Positions 32,291 through 40,597 of a stretch of DNA of 64,000 nucleotides are shown in pieces. Numbering within the stretch: the first letter of the stretch is position 1; every line of letters starts with the position of its first letter. Under the pieces are notes generated by a model, which was given only the letters and a program-made list of their open reading frames with translations, ran no database searches and was not told where the DNA came from. Origin of the DNA: Alphaproteobacteria bacterium (GTDB lineage Bacteria > Pseudomonadota > Alphaproteobacteria > UBA8366 > Aestuariispiraceae); assembly GCA_030065235.1 (NCBI GenBank), contig JASJDC010000007.1, positions 1-64,000 of the forward strand, read 5' to 3'. Made by a program: the position numbers and the translations under genes.

Positions 32291-32710
32291 ATGCGCCATC
32301 GTATGGCCAAGCGGAAGCTGAACCGCACCGCATCCCACCGCAAAGCCATGTTCGCCAATATGGCCAACGCGCTGATCAAGCACGAGCAGATCAACACGAC
32401 CCTGCCAAAGGCGAAAGAGCTGCGTGGCGTTGTCGATCGGCTGATCACGCTGGGCAAGAAGGGCGGTCTGCACCGCCGCAGACAGGCCTTTGCGCAACTG
32501 CGCGACGACGCCATGGTGGCCAAGCTGTTCGGTGATCTGGCCGAGCGCTACACCGACCGTCCAGGCGGCTATACCCGCGTGCTGAAGGCCGGCTTTCGCT
32601 ATGGCGACAACGCGCCGATGGCGATGATCGAATTGGTCGACCGTGATGCGGACGCCAAGGGCCAGGATTCCGGCCCGACCCAGGATGTCGAGGCCGACGA
32701 CGAGGAATAG
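32291..32710 (+). CDS. rplQ: 50S ribosomal protein L17
   Basis: The product has 139 residues. It begins [20 protein letters not shown], the most conserved part of L17, and ends in an acidic Asp/Glu tail after the conserved core. L17 lies at the tunnel exit. It ends the ribosomal region; a terminator follows at 32804-32840. AAGGAGACC precedes the start. Confidence 0.98.
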
Positions 32711-32774
32711 GCCTCAAGCCAATTCCGGTGCGCCCAATGTGAACCAATCGCGCCCTCGTGGCGTAGGAATAACC

Positions 32775-32918
32775 AAGAGTTTCTTGTCACCCTGGCGGAT
32801 GACAAAAGCCCCGCGGCGAACCTGTCGCGCGGGGCTTTTTCTTTGGGCGTCGGGCGCTGCGATCACGCGGCGGGAATCGACTTCAGGTGTTCGAGTTCGA
32901 AGGAGGCGACCCGATCGA
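32775..32918 (+). repeat. Direct repeat copy 1 (terminator plus ABM gene end)
   Basis: About 144 bases match 35482-35624 with roughly ten differences. The unit starts at AAGAGTNTCTTGTCACC, includes a bidirectional terminator, then the reverse complement of the last codons of an ABM-domain gene. A third, degenerate match to the first half lies at 37374-37432. The copies flank the LysR/SRPBCC cassette. Confidence 0.9.
32804..32840 (+). terminator. Bidirectional terminator after rplQ
   Basis: AAAAGCCCCGCG at 32804-32815 pairs with CGCGGGGC at 32828-32835 followed by TTTTT at 32836-32840. A-run and T-run on both sides allow termination from either strand. It lies 94 bases past the rplQ stop and is inside repeat copy 1. 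Confidence 0.88.
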
Positions 32919-32956
32919 CTGTTCGCTTGAGGGCGGCTTCGGCGGTGATGTTTCGC
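32863..32956 (-). pseudogene. C-terminal remnant of a second ABM-domain monooxygenase gene
   Basis: The minus strand reads ...KRTVDRVASFELEHLKSIPAA and a TGA stop at 32863. The intact gene at 35570-35878 ends KTRDRIASFELEHLKSIPAA. The match fades upstream at the LysR stop codon (32957-32959). With the N-terminal remnant at 35351-35429 it forms the two ends of one broken gene. No start codon or body is left. Confidence 0.75.
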
Positions 32957-33856
32957 CTATATCGAAACGCCTTCGATCAGGTCTTTCCGAGCCAGTGCAG
33001 CCGTCGCGAGGGCTTCGAAGGCCGCTCTGATCCGCGGCGACTTGCGCAGGCTCTCATGTGTCAGGATCCACAGCGCATTCAGTTCCCGCAAACGGTTTGG
33101 CGATAGGCGGACAAGGTCGGGTTGGGCGTCGCCGACATAACAGGGCAGCTCCACAGCCGCCGGGAGCGACAGAGCAATGGCAAGTTGAGACTGGATGTCA
33201 GAGACGGTCGCAACGATGCGCACTTGCCTGAACCCAAGCGATGCATAGATCGGCGCGACGACAGAGGCGTCGTCCCAGCCGACGACGGGCAGGGGATCTA
33301 CTCCGTCCTTGAGAGCTTCTGCTGCTTGGCGCGACGCGTATACGGTGGACCGCGCTTGGCACAGCCTTCTGCCAAACAGGGAGGGCATTGGTGAATTCTG
33401 CAGCCGCAGAACGATATCTGACTCCCGTTGATCGAGATCGGCAAAGCCATCTCCGAGGGCGAAATTCAAGGTGATCTCTGGATGGCGGGCGTGCAACACA
33501 CCGACCGCCTCCGCCGCGACGTGCGCGAGAAGGCTTGCATTCATTGAAACAGTGACAGGACCGGCGGCTTCGTGGCCCGCGTCGTCCAGGAACCGCGTCA
33601 ACGCCTCCGACTCCGTGGCCATACGCTCAGCATGTTCGATGATGCGGGCGCCCTCGTCGGTTAATGTGTATCCCCGCACCGACTTCACGAAGGCCGACAC
33701 GCCCATGGCCTTTTCGGCGACCCTTATCCGATGGGCGAGGGTCGTGTGTGCGACGCCGAGTTCCGCAGCGGCGGCCCTGACTGTACCGTAGCGGGCGACA
33801 AGGAGGATCGCCTGCATCCCGTCCCAGCTCAGCCAACTGGAGTGTTTTTGCACCAT
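32957..33856 (-). CDS. LysR-family transcriptional regulator
   Basis: The product has 299 residues. An N-terminal winged helix-turn-helix lies at residues about 10-68 (DGMQAILLVARYGTVRAAAA, then ELGVAHTTLAHRIRVAEKAM), followed by a LysR effector domain beginning near residue 95 (GPVTVSMNASLLAHVAAEAV). It is divergent from the SRPBCC gene at 33939 across an 82-base gap, the classic LysR arrangement, so it probably controls that operon and itself. The ligand is unknown. A TATAAT at 11 bases before its ATG suggests a very short leader. Its stop codon touches the ABM remnant, which marks the left edge of the inserted cassette. Confidence 0.93.
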   Translation of the reverse strand: MVQKHSSWLSWDGMQAILLVARYGTVRAAAAELGVAHTTLAHRIRVAEKAMGVSAFVKSVRGYTLTDEGARIIEHAERMATESEALTRFLDDAGHEAAGPVTVSMNASLLAHVAAEAVGVLHARHPEITLNFALGDGFADLDQRESDIVLRLQNSPMPSLFGRRLCQARSTVYASRQAAEALKDGVDPLPVVGWDDASVVAPIYASLGFRQVRIVATVSDIQSQLAIALSLPAAVELPCYVGDAQPDLVRLSPNRLRELNALWILTHESLRKSPRIRAAFEALATAALARKDLIEGVSI

Positions 33857-33938
33857 GTTGGTCTATTATACGGTATTTTTGCTCTTAGGAAGCCACGATA
33901 GCCTTGGTCACATCACATTGACAGAAAGGAGAAACCAA
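33857..33938. promoter_or_regulatory. Divergent promoter region of the LysR and SRPBCC genes
   Basis: This 82-base, AT-rich gap holds both promoters. On the minus strand TATAAT lies just before the LysR start, without a good -35. On the + strand AAGGAGA (about 33926-33932) is the ribosome-binding site of the GTG start at 33939. A LysR box (T-N11-A) is expected here but no single site was clear enough to name. Confidence 0.6.
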
Positions 33939-34334
33939 GTGGCCACCATAACAAAGACAGCGACCCTGCGCGCGCCGGTCGCCGAGGTATGGGACATCGT
34001 GTCCGATATCGGCAACGTCCCGGCATTGACCGGCATGATCATTGAAAGTGTGGTTGAGGGCGATCATAGGACGTGCCGCATGGCGGATGGTCAGACTCTG
34101 GAAGAGAGTATTCTTTCGGTCGATCACGACTTGCGCCGGGTCGCCTATCGGGTGCATTCCTCGCCTTTCCCGATTACCGAGCATGCCGCGTCGATCGTCG
34201 TCAGCGACGACGGCGGGCGCGCGCGCGTGATCTGGACAACGGATCTGCTGCCCGACAGCGCCGCGCCGATGTTTCGTGAAGCGGCGGACATGATGTTCAA
34301 CGACATGATCAAACGCATGGGAGGTGTGGCATGA
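33939..34334 (+). CDS. SRPBCC (polyketide cyclase/START-like) family protein
   Basis: The product has 131 residues from a GTG at 33939; the frame is open further upstream, but AAGGAGA ends 6 bases before this GTG and the family fold starts here (VATITKTATLRAPVAEVWDIV). The helix-grip pattern of SRPBCC proteins follows: VPALTGMIIESVVEGDHRTC, LRRVAYRVHSSPFPI and a long C-terminal helix (SAAPMFREAADMMFNDMIKR). Such proteins bind small hydrophobic ligands or act as aromatases or cyclases; the ligand is not predictable. Its stop overlaps the next gene as ATGA. Confidence 0.88.
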   Translation: MATITKTATLRAPVAEVWDIVSDIGNVPALTGMIIESVVEGDHRTCRMADGQTLEESILSVDHDLRRVAYRVHSSPFPITEHAASIVVSDDGGRARVIWTTDLLPDSAAPMFREAADMMFNDMIKRMGGVA

Positions 34335-34768
34335 AAAAGATCGCTCTTTCCATATTGCTTGCGCTCTCGACGGTGGCGCCATCTACGGGCTCGGCCCAAG
34401 ACCTGTTCGCCCGCGAGCAGACTGCGGCGGACCTGGATGATGTCTACTTCATTGCGCAATTGAAGGTCGACGACATGGAGGCCTTCCAAAATGAGTACGT
34501 CCCCGGGACGGCGGCGCTGCTTGGTGAGACGAGCGCGCTTGTCTTGGCCGTATCGCCGGCGCCGACCGTGGTCGAGGGCGCCTGGGACAGCAACTGGACC
34601 GTTCTGATGCGGTTCGAAACCCAGGCCGACTTCGATAGGTTCTACAAGGACGACGCCTACCAGGCCCAGTTCGTGCCGATCCGCACGCGCGCGGCCAGCA
34701 TCAACAATGTCGTGCTTCTTCCGGCGTTCGATCCGGCGCAGTTCGGGCGGCAATCGCAGCCCGAGTAG
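34331..34768 (+). CDS. Exported DUF1330-like protein
   Basis: The product has 145 residues. Residues 1-22 form a signal peptide (MKKIALSILLALSTVAPS, cleavage probably after GSA). The mature part resembles the DUF1330 ferredoxin-like fold: VYFIAQLKVDDMEAFQNEYV, VVEGAWDSNWTVLMRF and ADFDRFYKDDAYQAQFVPI. Most DUF1330 proteins are cytoplasmic, so export is notable. It overlaps the SRPBCC gene by 4 bases and precedes a second SRPBCC gene. Function is unknown. Confidence 0.8.
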   Translation: MKKIALSILLALSTVAPSTGSAQDLFAREQTAADLDDVYFIAQLKVDDMEAFQNEYVPGTAALLGETSALVLAVSPAPTVVEGAWDSNWTVLMRFETQADFDRFYKDDAYQAQFVPIRTRAASINNVVLLPAFDPAQFGRQSQPE

Positions 34769-34801
34769 CAAAAGCATCGATGAAACCGAAAGGAAATGAC
34801 A

Positions 34802-35269
34802 ATGAAGACAGTAATCGTTGAAGAAACCGTCGGCGCATCGCTCGACAAGGTGTGGGCCAGTTGGGACAATTTTGGTGAAGTGGCCCGGTTTCACCCGGGC
34901 ATTATGGCTTCGCGTCTACTGGCCGGAAGCGCGCACTCGGGCGTTGGCGCGCGCCGCCAATGCGATCTGTCCGCCAACGGGAAACAGTTCGTCCGCGAAA
35001 AGATCGTGGCCTACGATCCCCCGCACCGGATGGTGATCGACATTTATGAGGCGACCGTTCCTATCCGCTCCGCAAAGGCGACGCTTGAATTGTCGGCGGC
35101 GGGTGCGGACCGGACACAGGTCAGGATGACGATGGCGTTTACGCCCGGCATGGGTTTCTTGGGCTGGCTGATTTCGCCCATGATGGCGTCGCAATTCAAG
35201 TCGATGCTCGCCAAGGCGCTCAAGAGCAACGCCGCCTTCGTGATGAGCGGCGTTGAGGTCGCCAGGTAG
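34802..35269 (+). CDS. Second SRPBCC (polyketide cyclase/START-like) family protein
   Basis: The product has 155 residues from the ATG at 34802; an in-frame ATG at 34796 sits one base after AGGA, so the later start has the proper 7-base spacing. The protein opens MKTVIVEETVGASLDKVWAS, contains KFVREKIVAYDPPHRMVIDI-like strands (seen as VREKIVAYDPPHRMVIDIYE) and a Gly/Met-rich helix near residue 115. It differs from the first SRPBCC protein in length and sequence, so this is not a recent duplication. Third gene of the cassette. Confidence 0.87.
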   Translation: MKTVIVEETVGASLDKVWASWDNFGEVARFHPGIMASRLLAGSAHSGVGARRQCDLSANGKQFVREKIVAYDPPHRMVIDIYEATVPIRSAKATLELSAAGADRTQVRMTMAFTPGMGFLGWLISPMMASQFKSMLAKALKSNAAFVMSGVEVAR

Positions 35270-35350
35270 GCGGGACGGAGGGACGGTCCACAGCGAGCGC
35301 GGCGCTCCCGTCGTTTGCGGTGTAGACCTGGTCTCGCCGTGCTCCTCGGA

Positions 35351-35429
35351 CCAGTCCCGATTTTCATCATCCACAAAGACGGGGACGATGAGAATGCGTT
35401 TATTGGCGTCGGCGCTCGTCCCGACACAC
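35351..35429 (-). pseudogene. N-terminal remnant of the broken ABM-domain gene
   Basis: The minus strand reads VGTSADANKRILIVPVFV then DDENRDW. The intact neighbour starts MGVGAEKLILIASIVAEDEN then RDF. The frames correspond and the bases GGATGATGAAAATCGGGACT versus GGATGAGAACCGGGACT align, but the start codon is lost and the similarity stops after ENRDW. It matches the missing 5' end of the C-terminal remnant at 32863-32956. Confidence 0.6.
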
Positions 35430-35481
35430 TGATGGCGACCTTGCCGGATACCGACCGAGCCCTGTCGGCGCAACCAGCAAA

Positions 35482-35624
35482 AAGAGTCTCTTGTCACCCT
35501 GGCGGATGACAAAAGCCCCGCAGCGAATGCATCGCGCGGGGCTTTTTCTTTGGGTGTCGGGCGCTGCGATCACGCGGCGGGAATTGACTTCAGGTGTTCG
35601 AGTTCGAAGGATGCGATCCGATCC
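35482..35624 (+). repeat. Direct repeat copy 2 (terminator plus ABM gene end)
   Basis: About 143 bases are nearly identical to 32775-32918. Here the right half is the actual 3' end of the intact ABM gene, which shows that the repeated unit is a terminator plus gene end rather than a transposon end. No transposase or inverted repeat is seen at either copy. Confidence 0.9.
35511..35547 (-). terminator. Bidirectional terminator after the ABM gene
   Basis: AAAAGCCCCGC at 35511-35521 pairs with GCGGGGC at 35536-35542 followed by TTTTT. On the minus strand it lies 23 bases past the ABM stop; on the + strand it can end transcripts from the SRPBCC operon. Confidence 0.85.
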
Positions 35625-35878
35625 CGTGTTTTTTCGCGGAAGTCCGCGATATGCTCGGTTTCCATATGCGCCAGCCACGCGCCGCGGGAAGCCCATGTTT
35701 CAATCATCAGAAAACGGTTGGGATCTTCATCGGACACAACCAGATCGTAGCGTTCGCAACCCGCTTCGTTCCTGGTTGGCGAGAGAAGGGCGCGCAGCGC
35801 ACGTAGTATGAAGTCCCGGTTCTCATCCTCTGCGACGATGGACGCGATGAGGATGAGCTTCTCGGCCCCGACACCCAT
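35570..35878 (-). CDS. Antibiotic biosynthesis monooxygenase (ABM) domain protein
   Basis: This 102-residue protein starts at the ATG 35878-35876, overlapping the oxidoreductase stop as TGATG. It is the compact ferredoxin-like ABM fold: LILIASIVAEDENRDFILRA, EAGCERYDLVVSDEDPNRFL, and the WASRGAWLAHMETEHIADF helix with the conserved His. Relatives are YgiN-type quinol monooxygenases and small quinone-handling enzymes. Pairing with a quinone oxidoreductase supports a quinone or electrophile detoxification role (inference). A broken second copy lies downstream. Confidence 0.88.
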   Translation of the reverse strand: MGVGAEKLILIASIVAEDENRDFILRALRALLSPTRNEAGCERYDLVVSDEDPNRFLMIETWASRGAWLAHMETEHIADFREKTRDRIASFELEHLKSIPAA

Positions 35879-36870
35879 CACGATACCTCCACGACGACTT
35901 TGCCGATGGCCTTGCCGGACAGCAAACGATCGTGGGCCGCTCCCACATCTGAGAGCGCGAAGACGGTCTCGTCGATCAGCGGCGCAACCATGCCGGCCTC
36001 CACCATGTTTGCGAGTTTCTCCAGAATGCGCCCGTGGGCTTCTCTGCCGACGCCTGTCAGAAGCGGGATCAGCATGAAGACCACATGAAGCGTGGCGTTC
36101 TTGACATGCAATGGGGAAAGATCGGGGGCGCTTTCCAGCGATACGATGGTGACGCACCGTCCATTGATCGCGATCGCGTCGAGCGACGGGGCGATATTGT
36201 CGCCGCCGACCGTATCGAAAACCACGTCGTAGCCCGCGCCCGCCGTGCCGCTCTCGACATAGTCGGCGACGGAAAGCTCCGGATACAGGAACACTTCGTC
36301 CGCGCCGAGCTTGAGTGCGATGTCGGCTTTTTCCTGCGTCGACACGGTGGCATGCACAATCGCGCCTAGGGCCTTCGCCAATTGAATCGCGATATGGCCG
36401 ACGCCGCCCGTACCGCCATGGATCAGCACCTTTTCGCCGGGCGCGACCTTGGCCCGGTCGACCAGCGCTTCCCAGGCGGTGATGGCCACCAGAGGCAACG
36501 CCGCACTCTGTTTGAAATCCAGATTGGCCGGCATGGGGGCGAGCAAACGGGCGTCCGCCACCATCATAGTGGCGTAAGCGCCGCCGCTCCCCTTGATGCC
36601 GCCGGCGCAGCCATAGACCTTATCCCCGACGGCGAAGCGCTCGACGCCTTCGCCAACGGCCAGGACGGTTCCAGCGACGTCACAGCCCAGGACAATCGGG
36701 TCGTCTGGGGCGATCGCATCCATACCGCCGCGGATCTTTGTGTCCACGACATTGATGCTGGCCGCCCTGACGGAAATCAGAACTTGGCCCGGCCCCGGCG
36801 CCGGGTCGTCCAGGGTCAGTTCTTGGAACTCGATCTCGCTCCCCAACGCGGGGATCATCATCGCTTTCAT
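35878..36870 (-). CDS. Zinc-independent quinone oxidoreductase, MDR superfamily
   Basis: The product has 330 residues. The GroES-like domain comes first (ASINVVDTKIRGG, VLGCDVAGTVLAVGEGVERF), then the Rossmann domain with the NADPH motif GGTGGVG at residues 152-158. The zinc ligands of alcohol dehydrogenases are missing. It probably reduces quinones or enones with NADPH. AAAGGAGAG precedes the ATG. It is divergent from the HxlR gene, which probably regulates it, and is translationally coupled to the ABM gene. Confidence 0.92.
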   Translation of the reverse strand: MKAMMIPALGSEIEFQELTLDDPAPGPGQVLISVRAASINVVDTKIRGGMDAIAPDDPIVLGCDVAGTVLAVGEGVERFAVGDKVYGCAGGIKGSGGAYATMMVADARLLAPMPANLDFKQSAALPLVAITAWEALVDRAKVAPGEKVLIHGGTGGVGHIAIQLAKALGAIVHATVSTQEKADIALKLGADEVFLYPELSVADYVESGTAGAGYDVVFDTVGGDNIAPSLDAIAINGRCVTIVSLESAPDLSPLHVKNATLHVVFMLIPLLTGVGREAHGRILEKLANMVEAGMVAPLIDETVFALSDVGAAHDRLLSGKAIGKVVVEVS

Positions 36871-36985
36871 CTGCGCTCTCCTTTGGTCACTGTGATCTGA
36901 CTGTTGAGGCGCATAGATAACTATTGTAACTTCATCAGCAAGAACCCACTTTTTTGTATGGTAGTATCAAAAAGGAAACTATAGG
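36871..36985. promoter_or_regulatory. Divergent promoter region between quinone oxidoreductase and HxlR
   Basis: This 115-base AT-rich gap separates two divergent starts. GTATGGTAGTATC near 36956-36968 is an imperfect palindrome of the kind bound by HxlR dimers, and AAGGAAAC precedes the HxlR ATG. I could not fix the -35 and -10 elements. Confidence 0.5.
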
Positions 36986-37333
36986 ATGAAGAATACAAGC
37001 GACGCGCAGCATGACAAGCCGTTCGGCTGTTCGGTCGAAGCGACGCTGGCGGTCATCGGCGGGCGCTGGAAGCCCGTGATCCTTTTCAAACTCATGGAAG
37101 AGGGCACATTACGGTTCGGCGAACTGCGCCGGCAGGTGCCGGACGCCACCCAGAAAATGATGACCCAGCAACTGCGGGAACTGGAGCGCGACGAGATCAT
37201 CCATCGCGAGGTCTATCCCGAGGTGCCGCCAAAAGTAGAGTACAGCCTGACGGATTATGGCAGAAGCCTAGAGGCCGTCCTCCTCTCCATGAGAGACTGG
37301 GGCGCCAGCCATACCAAGAAACTGGCGGAGTGA
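36986..37333 (+). CDS. HxlR-family winged-helix transcriptional regulator
   Basis: The product has 115 residues. The HxlR signature is complete: a Cys near residue 15 ([17 protein letters not shown]), then [20 protein letters not shown] with [10 protein letters not shown] in the recognition region, and [12 protein letters not shown] in the wing. Members sense quinones or electrophiles through the N-terminal Cys and repress a divergent oxidoreductase gene, exactly the layout here. Control of 35570-36870 is therefore likely but inferred. Confidence 0.93.
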
Positions 37334-37373
37334 CGCTGGTAGCCGCAGTTTGGCGTGCGGGAAATGACGCGGG

Positions 37374-37432
37374 CGCCTTGGCGGATGGTAAAAGCCTTGA
37401 GGAGAACACTCCGCGCGAGGCGCTTCTTTGTG
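37374..37432 (+). repeat. Degenerate third copy of the terminator repeat
   Basis: GCGGATGGTAAAAGCCTTGA and GGAGAAC here correspond to GCGGATGACAAAAGCCCCGC and GGCGAAC in the two good copies, and CGCGCGAGGCGCTTCTTTG to CGCGCGGGGCTTTTTCTTTG. The stem is weakened. It follows the HxlR gene by about 40 bases and may still be a weak terminator. Confidence 0.6.
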
Positions 37433-37445
37433 AGGACCCGCACGA

Positions 37446-38009
37446 CTATCGCAAATCGATCAACCCATGGTCCTGCACCTGCGTGATCGCCTCGTGGGGG
37501 ACGTAGTCGGCGAAGAGCACGAGATTGTGACTGTCGTGCCGCGCGTTCGGGACGAGGATCGCCGAAGGGTCATCGGGACTGTTCGAGCCCAGGAAATGAA
37601 CGGCTTCGGCTACTTCCTGGCAGGTCTCGTACTCGCCATGGCGGTCGAGATAGGGCAAGCGTCCGAAATTGCCCATATCGATGCCAAGCCGACCGAGTAA
37701 TTCGGGGTCCGTCAGGTTGAGGACGCCATCGAGTTTGACGGACAACTCATGCAGCCGGTAGCGAATCTTTGACGGCGCGATGGGTTGGCCGCGCGTTAGG
37801 TGGAACCGCATCTCCGCCAGCGCGCCTTCCCGCTGGACCGAGGTGTAAAGAACCTCGAAACTCCCATCGTCCCATCGGTTTCCGCCGCTGGAGAAAAGGG
37901 TCGGATCGCGGTCTTCCCGTGTGACGCGCCAGACATTGGCTTCGAAAGACTGGGTCTCGAGCTGCTCAAGCGTATCGATCAGGGCCAGGTCTCTGGGGCT
38001 GGCCGCCAT
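37446..38009 (-). CDS. RES-domain toxin
   Basis: The product has 187 residues. The RES fold is recognisable from VWRVTRE (Arg28), FSSGGNRWDDGSFEVLYTS, GALAEMRFHL (Glu66) and NARHDSHNLVLF (Ser160); Arg, Glu and Ser are the active-site residues after which the domain is named. Characterised relatives (MbcT, ParT, Res) degrade NAD+ or ADP-ribosylate targets and stop growth. It lies 3 bases after the antitoxin gene and is third in the operon. The exact reaction here is not known. Confidence 0.92.
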   Translation of the reverse strand: MAASPRDLALIDTLEQLETQSFEANVWRVTREDRDPTLFSSGGNRWDDGSFEVLYTSVQREGALAEMRFHLTRGQPIAPSKIRYRLHELSVKLDGVLNLTDPELLGRLGIDMGNFGRLPYLDRHGEYETCQEVAEAVHFLGSNSPDDPSAILVPNARHDSHNLVLFADYVPHEAITQVQDHGLIDLR

Positions 38010-38012
38010 AAG

Positions 38013-38354
38013 CTAGAGATACCCGTCCGCGTCCAGCCGATCCAGAACCCGGAAGACATCCTCGACGCGGCCGGCGTGGATCAGGTCGATGGCGCGCTGA
38101 CCCTCGAGTTGCGGATGACGCGCATAGAGCCACATCCGGATTTCGTCATTCGCGTAGTAATCGTCGAGCCGTTTCACGACATAGATCAGGTCGGATAGCA
38201 CCCGTTCGCTCGCCGGCTGCGGCCGTTTTACACCACTGCGCCACCGGGACACGGTCGCCTTGGACACATCCGTGACGTTGGCGATGTCCGTCCCGTTCAA
38301 CCCGCCGATCGTCTCCAACTCACTGATGCTTCGCGAAATCGCGGTTGAAGTCAT
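38013..38354 (-). CDS. Xre/MbcA/ParS-type antitoxin
   Basis: The product has 113 residues. A helix-turn-helix lies at about residues 19-46 (NGTDIANVTDVSKATVSRWR), followed by the C-terminal MbcA/ParS domain (RMWLYARHPQLEGQRAIDLI, then RVEDVFRVLDRLD). Such proteins bury the active site of RES toxins and repress the operon. Its ATG overlaps the stop of the upstream 451-residue gene as TAATG. The 39720-39752 inverted repeat is its likely operator. Confidence 0.92.
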   Translation of the reverse strand: MTSTAISRSISELETIGGLNGTDIANVTDVSKATVSRWRSGVKRPQPASERVLSDLIYVVKRLDDYYANDEIRMWLYARHPQLEGQRAIDLIHAGRVEDVFRVLDRLDADGYL

Positions 38355-39709
38355 TATGCGCTTCCCGATTTTGGGTGCGCTTGACTTACCCTTGGCGCCC
38401 CAATCGCTCTTACGGGTGCGACTCTTTCACTATGGTCGAGTGCGATTTCTTCAAAAGTATCCTTTAGCTGTTCCGACTTCAGCCTGTGTTGAATTATCCG
38501 AGCCTGCAATTTCGCTAGATCAACTCTACACTCTTCGGCAACAGCGGGTTTCGGTTTCAGTTTTTGTGCGGCTTTCGCCGTTGCGACTATTTCACTCATT
38601 CTCTCTTCACAGAAATAGGTTGGCCTGTTTGCCGTAGGAATCGAATCGATTTTCTCTATACGTTGTCGTCCGTCGGCTGCATTGAAGCGACGTGGATCCT
38701 CAAGAAGTCCGTCGATTCCGTTTGGTAAAACGTTTCGGTCGTTTGGCAGAAGAAAGGTCTTCGCGCGATGTGCGGACAGTAATACTCGTGTTTCTTTGGT
38801 TGTAAACGACTGACCCAGATTAGATAATCCCACCCGTTTTGCGCGTCCCATTGGCTTCTCGCTGCCGGGATCACGCTTCTTCGGGGGCCTGTTCCAGTTC
38901 GACGTTACGAACGACGTGTGTTCGCCGTAGCCATGTGAGATAGCCGAAACAACGTTCATTGCTAGGAGTGCTTCCCCTGCGAGTCCTCCCACGTGGTCCA
39001 TGACTATTGGCATGCCAAGGTTATGCAAAGCTGCAAGTGCCCGGATCAACTGAACTGCATTGGCAGGGCTCTTGTCCGGTGAAGTCATTGATCCCCGGAC
39101 CCAAAGCACTTCAATCGGTAGATTGGGCAGGTCAGTCATCAGTTTGGCACGGAGGGTTTGATCGCTTAAATCTTGGAGTCGTGCGGCTAGCAAATAGTCT
39201 AAAGCTATGTCATTGCCGCCTTCACGATCTAGTGCATTCCTTAGAAGCGAACATCCTTCCATATCGAGTATGTACCAATCACTGAAATCGGGGTCGGCCA
39301 AGAAATGTGTTGGAGCCAGCACCGCGTCTACGCCGTATTCCACGGCCGTACGCGCAATGGCGCCATAGATGTCAGATGGGTGTCCTGGGCGGAATACGTC
39401 CGGTTGCAGTGCTGCCCCATGGTGTTTGGCTGCCCACGGTGCACTAGCAGCGTGTCCACCGCACTTGTTTAGTGATGACAGTTCAATTGTCCTAGGATCA
39501 AGAACAACTTCTGCTCCCAGTCCTTGGAGCATTTGAATGGTGCTCTTTAGGAACTTGATCTTTGAGCCGTTGACGACGAATCGCTTGCTGGTGATTACAC
39601 CAGCTGCGACTAAGTCAGCGACCTTTTTATAGCTGCTGTCACCTAGGCGTATGTAGTGACCGACTGGTTGGAAAGCTCTTTGTTGCTTTGGAAATTCTAT
39701 AACACTCAT
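38354..39709 (-). CDS. Unrecognised 451-residue protein, first gene of the RES/Xre operon
   Basis: The ATG at 39709 (MSVIEFPKQQRAFQPVGHYI) has AAAGGA 8 bases upstream and a promoter at 39731-39759; the open frame extends to 39910 but would run through the promoter and a terminator. I do not recognise the family. Alternating strands and helices (RFVVNGSK, AEVVLDPRTIELS, YGVDAVLAPTHFL, PIEVLWVRGS, PIVMDHVGGLAGEALLAM, AISHGYGEHTSF) suggest a TIM-barrel-like fold, possibly nucleoside or base related, but this is weak inference. The last 60 residues are charged and probably helical. No signal peptide or membrane helix is seen. The DNA is visibly AT-richer, with rare-looking codons, than the flanking genes, pointing to transfer. 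It shares one-base overlap with the antitoxin gene. Confidence 0.85.
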   Translation of the reverse strand: MSVIEFPKQQRAFQPVGHYIRLGDSSYKKVADLVAAGVITSKRFVVNGSKIKFLKSTIQMLQGLGAEVVLDPRTIELSSLNKCGGHAASAPWAAKHHGAALQPDVFRPGHPSDIYGAIARTAVEYGVDAVLAPTHFLADPDFSDWYILDMEGCSLLRNALDREGGNDIALDYLLAARLQDLSDQTLRAKLMTDLPNLPIEVLWVRGSMTSPDKSPANAVQLIRALAALHNLGMPIVMDHVGGLAGEALLAMNVVSAISHGYGEHTSFVTSNWNRPPKKRDPGSEKPMGRAKRVGLSNLGQSFTTKETRVLLSAHRAKTFLLPNDRNVLPNGIDGLLEDPRRFNAADGRQRIEKIDSIPTANRPTYFCEERMSEIVATAKAAQKLKPKPAVAEECRVDLAKLQARIIQHRLKSEQLKDTFEEIALDHSERVAPVRAIGAPRVSQAHPKSGSA

Positions 39710-39719
39710 GTAGATTCCT

Positions 39720-39759
39720 TTCTGTTTCAGAAAATATCGTTGTGAAACAGAAGAGTCAA
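39720..39759 (-). promoter_or_regulatory. Promoter and inverted-repeat operator of the three-gene RES/Xre operon
   Basis: On the minus strand TTGACT (39759-39754), a 17-base spacer and TATTTT (39736-39731) form a sigma-70-type promoter. TTCTGTTTCA at 39720-39729 and TGAAACAGAA at 39743-39752 form a perfect 10-bp inverted repeat with 13 bases between arms, one arm inside the spacer and one just after the -10. A protein bound there would block polymerase, as expected for antitoxin autorepression. Confidence 0.8.
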
Positions 39760-39878
39760 TAGTTGAATCGTCGCGCTTTCTCTGGTCACGCAGATCAGCA
39801 CGTTTCAAACGCGTTTGTTTTCTCAGGGCGGTTTGGTTGATGCGGCACCTGGAACTGCGCGCTACGTGGTATCTAAAG

Positions 39879-39908
39879 AAAAACCCCGCCGGTAAGGCGG
39901 GGTTTCTC
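39879..39908 (-). terminator. Terminator after rplI
   Basis: AAACCCCGCC at 39881-39890 pairs with GGCGGGGTTT at 39896-39905 around GGTAA. Read on the minus strand it ends in TTTTTCTTT, a good T-tract. It lies 27 bases past the rplI stop and isolates the ribosomal operon from the RES/Xre operon. Confidence 0.9.
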
Positions 39909-39934
39909 ATAACTTCAGCGATGGCGCCTTGCCG

Positions 39935-40597
39935 TCACTCGGCTGGCTTGTCGCCTTCTTCTGCCTCACCGTCCGCTCCAGCCTCTTCAGCGGCGGCGGC
40001 TTCTTCCTCGGCTTCCACTTCCGCCGCGACGGCGGCCATGGCGGCGGCGTGTTCGGCGGCGATTTCGGCGGCTTCTTGCTGGTCCGCCAGGGCGGCGGTC
40101 AGGAGGGCCGGTTCGCCGCGGGCGACGCGGTCGGCTTGGGCTTCGGCTTCTTCGGCCGATTGCGCGACATTGATGCTGATCGCGACCGAGACTTCCGGAT
40201 GCAGACGGATGGTCTGATCAAAAATGCCCAAGGTCTTGATCGGCCGGTCGATGACGACCTGCGTCCGTGTCACGCTGACGCCGGCGTCCGACACCGCTTC
40301 CGCGATATCGCGGCCGTTGACCGAGCCGTAGAGCTGGCCGGATTCGGAGGCGGCGCGGATGATCACGACACTCATGTCGGCCATCTTTTCGGCGACCGAG
40401 TCCGCTTCCTGTTTGCGTTCCAGGTTCTGCGCCTCAAGCTGCGCGCGTTCGGTCTCGAACCGTTTGCGGTTCGCCTCGGTCGCGCGCAGCGCCTTGCCTT
40501 GCGGCAGCAGGAAATTGCGCGCGAAGCCCGGCTTGACCTTCACGACATCGCCCATTTGGCCGAGTTTCTCGACCCGCTCCAAGAGAATGAGTTCCAT
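39935..40597 (-). CDS. rplI: 50S ribosomal protein L9
   Basis: The product has 220 residues, longer than the usual 150. The N-terminal domain [24 protein letters not shown] and [13 protein letters not shown] are typical, with the C-terminal rRNA domain near residues 80-150. After that comes an acidic alanine/glutamate tail of about 60 residues. L9 helps control frameshifting. It is the last gene of rpsF-rpsR-rplI. Confidence 0.97.

Follow-up and report, generated by a model that had tools for sequence, protein, structure and literature searches.

DUF1330 is a domain of unknown function, and CmaL from Pseudomonas syringae is the only DUF1330 protein with a genetic role in the papers that we found; it is reported to be needed for L-allo-isoleucine (Worley et al. 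2013). In the literature searched, no paper combines DUF1330 with SRPBCC proteins, an operon of the kind analyzed here was not found described, and neither a ligand nor a reaction was found for any member of the exported DUF1330 subgroup. The described systems that lie closest to the locus are DUF1330 proteins of solved structure, ABM-type cofactor-free oxygenases, START/PYR-PYL-like SRPBCC proteins, and LysR-controlled loci for the detoxification of electrophiles and quinones. Here, we compare with these systems a four-gene cassette found in a 64,000-nucleotide stretch of alphaproteobacterial DNA, which we refer to as the window.

The cassette and its probable site of insertion

The set consists of a LysR-family regulator gene on the minus strand (32957-33856) and, across a gap of 82 bp, the plus-strand genes SRPBCC1 (33939-34334; 131 aa, no signal peptide seen), DUF1330 (34331-34768; 145 aa, with an N-terminal signal peptide and a linker of ∼13 residues) and SRPBCC2 (34796-35269). 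The initial annotation had described two different SRPBCC genes around a DUF1330 gene with a signal peptide; all three are present in that arrangement, and Pfam confirms their families. SRPBCC1 and SRPBCC2 match PF10604 (8.3e-16, 59 bits and 1.1e-19, 71.6 bits; cut-off 27.4 bits), the latter also PF03364, and the DUF1330 protein matches PF07045 (3.3e-16, 59.9 bits; gathering cut-off 23 bits). As a statement about layout, the claim that the genes stand under a LysR regulator holds as well, since the divergent gene encodes both an HTH_1 domain (PF00126, 42.6 bits) and a LysR substrate domain (PF03466, 39.4 bits), each of which exceeds its cut-off. NCBIfam offers no family for SRPBCC1, DUF1330 or SRPBCC2, and its LysR matches all fall far below cut-off. 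The two SRPBCC proteins share 26% identity. SRPBCC1 starts at a GTG codon (33939) with AGGAG ahead of it, and the Tateyamaria counterpart described below starts with ATG at the same residue. The TGA stop of SRPBCC1 and the ATG start of DUF1330 overlap (ATGA), which suggests translational coupling. The divergent intergenic region (33857-33938), which presumably holds the LysR operator and the promoters, has short blocks in common with Tateyamaria in an alignment (TTGGT, TTAT, TTTTGCTC, and AGAAAGGAG); a scan for the sigma-70 consensus gave no match within it. The G+C content of the cassette (60-62%) is the same as that of its surroundings, and composition does not mark it.

An uncultured Tateyamaria, the sole find of a genome-contig scan that reaches close relatives only, carries all four genes with identical order and orientation. 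The Tateyamaria family belongs to the same class as the window genome and to another order; this placement rests on two entries with identical coordinates, G691 and G1141, the latter labeled "same class". Protein identity between the two copies is 70.9% for LysR, 81.7% for SRPBCC1, 80.0% for DUF1330, and 72.3% for SRPBCC2; the window LysR has 299 aa against 305 aa in Tateyamaria, with six residues fewer at the C-terminus, which lies at the cassette edge. With dN of 0.11-0.21 and dS of at least 1.4 (saturated for DUF1330), purifying selection appears to act on all four genes. DNA similarity is limited to 32966-35232, and the flanks that were read are not common to both genomes. A close copy was found in 1 of 20 Tateyamaria genomes searched, which is the Tateyamaria itself, and in 0 of 58 other relatives of the window genome, among which the best match is a LysR and exported DUF1330 pair in the genome G049 that is 35% identical. 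This patchy distribution points to horizontal transfer. Searches of plasmids with the window DUF1330 and SRPBCC2 proteins returned only distant haloarchaeal or Bacteroidota matches (four and three records, respectively). The cassette is real, recurrent, and under selection, and it seems to pass from order to order as a single unit.

The surroundings may bear traces of its arrival. Downstream of rplQ in 11 family relatives (6-7 kb each), tblastn at E 1e-4 found neither the cassette genes nor the ABM, dehydrogenase, HxlR, RES, or antitoxin-like genes of the window, and stretches of 1.5 kb from two further relatives hold none of these genes either. In the window, the cassette lies between plus-strand copies of a 142-bp direct repeat that are 93% identical and have no other extended copy in the genome. 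The left copy (32775-32916) comprises a terminator-like hairpin and the 3' end of an ABM-type gene; the right copy (35482-35623) runs into an intact ABM gene (35570-35881). Remnants of a second ABM-type gene lie on the minus strand to either side of the cassette, with a C-terminal piece on the left (32863-32928, 81% identical to ABM residues 83-103) and an N-terminal piece on the right (35351-35446). The right remnant has a DNA score of 36, whereas 500 mononucleotide shuffles reached at most 27; its protein score to the ABM protein is 51, a value that none of 500 shuffles attained. Ahead of it is the apparent tail of a dehydrogenase gene. The simplest reading is that an ABM-dehydrogenase pair was once duplicated and that the outer ABM copy received the cassette and lost its own middle part. 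Recombination between the direct repeats could excise the cassette again. The ABM, dehydrogenase, and HxlR genes that border the cassette are outside the block in common with Tateyamaria.

We also note several features of the wider region. A third copy of the terminator part of the repeat, 74% similar, follows the HxlR gene (37376-37421). The ∼7 kb from rplQ to a gene that we take to be rplI from the way it reads (32710-39937) carries accessory genes and may be an insertion hotspot. It includes a RES-domain gene (PF08808) and a small gene on the same strand (37446-38354), likely a RES-Xre toxin-antitoxin pair, the small gene having a weak match, below cut-off, to an Xre/MbcA/ParS antitoxin domain. 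A large minus-strand frame (38354-39910) of lower G+C content (52-55% in 1-kb windows) has no Pfam or PADLOC match in the part scanned (38357-39700). A defense system was also considered for this island, and 0 of the 7 proteins tested match PADLOC-DB at E 0.001.

Exported DUF1330 proteins and their LysR neighbors

The window DUF1330 protein begins with MKKIALSILLALSTVAPSTGSAQ-D, a Sec-like signal peptide as judged by eye and by a simple rule. Most relatives that were read start a few residues ahead of the domain. The initial annotation had called such a signal unusual for the family. Unusual it is, although other members have one too: of 107 distinct DUF1330 frames, 17 carry it, a proportion that is no natural frequency but belongs to a set of best matches, many of them to exported-protein profiles. 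The rule flagged 17 frames; two were removed by eye because the DUF1330 domain has its own start codon there (L119 and L142) and two that it had missed were added, also by eye (L061 and L098), which again gives 17.

For the neighborhood survey, profiles built from exported DUF1330 proteins were searched against five genome samples, two from the class (385 and 372 genomes) and one each from the Tateyamaria family (394), its order (341), and the phylum (398). These samples overlap, and only the best matches per sample were taken. Neighborhoods were read from stretches of 3-10 kb, adjacency of LysR or SRPBCC genes was defined as within 1.5 kb, and the neighbor models were made from cassette members, which dissimilar SRPBCC proteins may escape. 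Thirteen distinct exported DUF1330 proteins score at least 134 bits, and the next scores 94. A LysR gene is adjacent in all 13 of these loci, which are non-independent (seven clusters at 60% identity), compared with 8 of the 94 other DUF1330 frames. Four of the 94 are also exported by eye, from Pararhizobium, Enterobacter mori, Ancylobacter, and Haloterrigena (together the plasmid proteins L082, L083, L085, and L088). After these are reassigned, LysR adjoins 14 of 17 exported and 7 of 90 unexported frames, an enrichment that rests on counts among related rows, for which Fisher p-values are not read as probabilities. In 12 of the 13 loci, the LysR gene lies upstream of DUF1330 and points away from it; in the remaining one, G554, it is downstream and co-directional.

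The Haloterrigena gene (L088, 3429-3902) is an archaeal parallel to this layout: as judged by eye, its product has a twin-arginine-like leader, and a helix-turn-helix regulator is encoded divergently from the gene. In two Tateyamaria-family genomes, the genes downstream of the cassettes (L072, 2616-3590, and L071, 5882-6595) encode an alpha/beta hydrolase with an export signal by eye and a LysE-type exporter.

At 50% identity (single linkage), the 13 exported DUF1330 proteins form four groups, and the LysR tree gives the same sets. These are a set of seven (G697, G773, G798, G1274, G774, G049, and G1328; LysR tree support 96/89), a set of three (G812, G691, and G1281; 100/100), the window with Tateyamaria (100/100), and G554 alone, the LysR of which groups with the LysRs of two unexported loci. 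From this agreement, the two genes seem to have been inherited jointly within groups. Between groups, the deep branches of the two trees lack resolution or disagree: the window and Tateyamaria form a long branch within the G697 group (support 92/60) of the DUF1330 tree, and they lie outside that group in the LysR tree. The exported label needs three changes on the DUF1330 tree, so export need not have had a single origin. With Tateyamaria set aside, the window LysR scores 119.5 bits with the best cassette LysR (G812, phmmer) and 135 bits with a plasmid LysR that has no adjacent DUF1330 gene (tblastn, among the matches listed); by these scores, it appears no closer to cassette LysRs than to that plasmid LysR.

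Predicted folds, SRPBCC neighbors and possible functions

The window DUF1330 protein carries Y56, E82, G83, F95, Y110, and R118, which are nearly invariant across 59 DUF1330 rows; all 13 exported rows keep Y56, E82, Y110, and R118, as do 45 or 46 of the 46 unexported rows. W89 is present in 12 of 13 exported rows but in 4 of 46 unexported rows, in which R is commonest at this position, and T90 in 13 of 13 compared with 9 of 46; the window protein has the W89 and T90 of the exported group. A C-terminal P-x-F stretch is retained in most exported rows. The structural model of the protein (mean pLDDT 69.8; 59-91 over ten-residue blocks of the domain, weakest at 71-90, and under 50 for residues 78-82, E82 included) has the order of strands and helices of a ferredoxin-like half-barrel, of the alpha/beta-barrel type. 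Its best matches are DUF1330 structures (2fiu and 3lo3) and ABM-fold proteins; its matches include RslO4, LsrG, OAC, YgiN, and the cofactor-independent oxygenase SnoaB (Z 11.2, rmsd 2.7 over 95 residues, 14% identity). The likeness to ABM proteins is one of fold only, with no sequence match to the ABM family PF03992 at E 0.001. The model of SRPBCC2 has a helix-grip fold (mean pLDDT 91.6) and lies closest to 7tmu and to PYL hormone receptors (PYL2), with a further match to norcoclaurine synthase. As modeled, both the DUF1330 fold and the helix-grip pocket of SRPBCC2 suit the binding or conversion of small molecules, although a common fold does not by itself establish function. Of the small-molecule system with a periplasmic component that the initial annotation proposed, the first part thus agrees with the folds, and the export signal fits the second; the periplasmic role of DUF1330 itself, like aromatic or quinone compounds as substrates, is something that we infer.

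The genomic contexts lean to redox and carbonyl chemistry, although not constantly so. Six plasmid LysR relatives were viewed, among the matches listed (20 of 1342 matching records): two have a ring-cleaving dioxygenase as neighbor, two have a glutathione transferase in the vicinity, one adjoins a zinc alcohol dehydrogenase, and one has none of these beside it. In Enterobacter mori, the surroundings of the exported DUF1330 gene encode NAD(P)H oxidoreductases, aldo/keto reductases, an ABM protein, and a carboxymuconolactone decarboxylase family protein. The window cassette borders an ABM gene, an HxlR regulator, and a dehydrogenase that is closest to the PIG3 quinone oxidoreductase model, below cut-off. 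Other DUF1330 neighborhoods viewed contain thiamine genes, amino-acid transporters, or copper proteins.

Our best explanation, put forward tentatively, is that the cassette is an acquired, self-contained, LysR-controlled module that processes a carbonyl- or quinone-like compound, with DUF1330 in the periplasm and the SRPBCC proteins in the cytoplasm. A carbonyl-, enol-, or quinone-like inducer would bind LysR, which would then switch on the divergent operon. The exported DUF1330 barrel would convert the compound in the periplasm via the E82/Y56/Y110/R118 set, perhaps by a cofactor-free proton transfer or oxidation, and whatever part of it enters the cytoplasm would be bound or converted by the two SRPBCC proteins. 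Whether this amounts to a mobile two-compartment system, in which a periplasmic DUF1330 enzyme and cytoplasmic START-like partners, all controlled by a co-inherited LysR sensor, recognize one chemical class and remove or convert it, is more doubtful; if true, it would be previously undescribed and would assign a first function to the exported DUF1330 subgroup. The LysR gene that travels with this subgroup makes its function testable: whatever induces the LysR promoter would be expected to be the substrate or a compound that leads to it.

The same proteins might bind without chemistry. DUF1330 would then scavenge or deliver a ligand in the periplasm, and the SRPBCC proteins would act in the cytoplasm as ligand buffers or as co-sensors that tune the LysR response. 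PYL proteins tune responses in plants, and the SRPBCC2 model is closest to a structural-genomics SRPBCC protein and PYL receptors; moreover, no partner enzyme recurs in all exported loci, as judged by eye. The conserved Y56, E82, Y110, and R118, however, fit an active site, even if structure could also explain their conservation, and we regard binding without chemistry as unlikely.

The place of the SRPBCC proteins in the module was also addressed by the survey. The initial annotation wrote of these three genes only, and the part that is kept is instead LysR with exported DUF1330 (13 of 13). An SRPBCC gene is adjacent in 8 of the 13 loci compared with 2 of the 94 other frames (8 of 17 and 2 of 90 after reassignment), and SRPBCC is a frequent accessory of the pair. 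Where present, it lies downstream of DUF1330 on the same strand (8/8); two SRPBCC genes are found only in the window and Tateyamaria, the second being upstream of DUF1330. These two loci have both types, whereas G697, G773, G798, and G1274 have the SRPBCC2 type and G812 and G691 the SRPBCC1 type. None was detected within 1.5 kb in G774, G554, G049, G1281, and G1328. Homologues with neither a signal peptide nor an SRPBCC neighbor, which had been named as evidence against the coupling, account for 88 of the 90 unexported frames, but this description does not fit most of the close exported relatives. In G1228 and G1194, an unexported DUF1330 gene likewise comes after a divergent LysR gene and one of the SRPBCC2 type; in G436, genes for an SRPBCC2-type and a LysR protein lie 2.5-4 kb upstream of an unexported DUF1330 gene. 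These three cases suggest that export is not essential for the partnership. In Haloferax, no DUF1330 gene is annotated within 3.5 kb of an SRPBCC2 relative.

If the unit were LysR with exported DUF1330 and the SRPBCC genes occasional passengers, their absence from 5 of the 13 loci and the occurrence of two unlike types in different groups would be explained. The enrichment just described, the ATGA overlap, and the purifying selection on both SRPBCC genes speak against such a loose association, which we consider improbable. Equally improbable is biosynthetic tailoring, in which the operon would modify an endogenous carbonyl- or polyketide-like metabolite with DUF1330 acting like CmaL: the DUF1330 protein of the G697 cassette is 37.5% identical over 80 residues to CmaL, and SRPBCC proteins are often cyclases, but by eye the window cassette contains no synthase or carrier protein and none recurs in the other loci read, and one cassette member has an export signal.

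Comparison with known systems

The tentatively favored module, which would process a carbonyl- or quinone-like compound, resembles LysR-controlled loci for electrophile and quinone detoxification in its divergent LysR layout, and ring-cleaving dioxygenases or glutathione transferases stand beside or near four of the six LysR relatives viewed. The cassette itself, however, has no reductase, dioxygenase, glutathione transferase, or similar enzyme by Pfam, such as would mark a detoxification operon. START/PYR-PYL-like SRPBCC proteins are matched by both window proteins at the level of PF10604 and by the SRPBCC2 model in its likeness to PYL2 and 7tmu, but SRPBCC2 is bacterial and only 10-22% identical to them among the matches listed. 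The ABM-type cofactor-free oxygenases (SnoaB, RslO4, and YgiN) are alike in fold, whereas the window DUF1330 protein has an export signal. With the DUF1330 family (2fiu and 3lo3), the window protein shares the same conserved residues and matches in both sequence and fold; it differs by its signal peptide, W89/T90, the P-x-F stretch, and a LysR neighbor.
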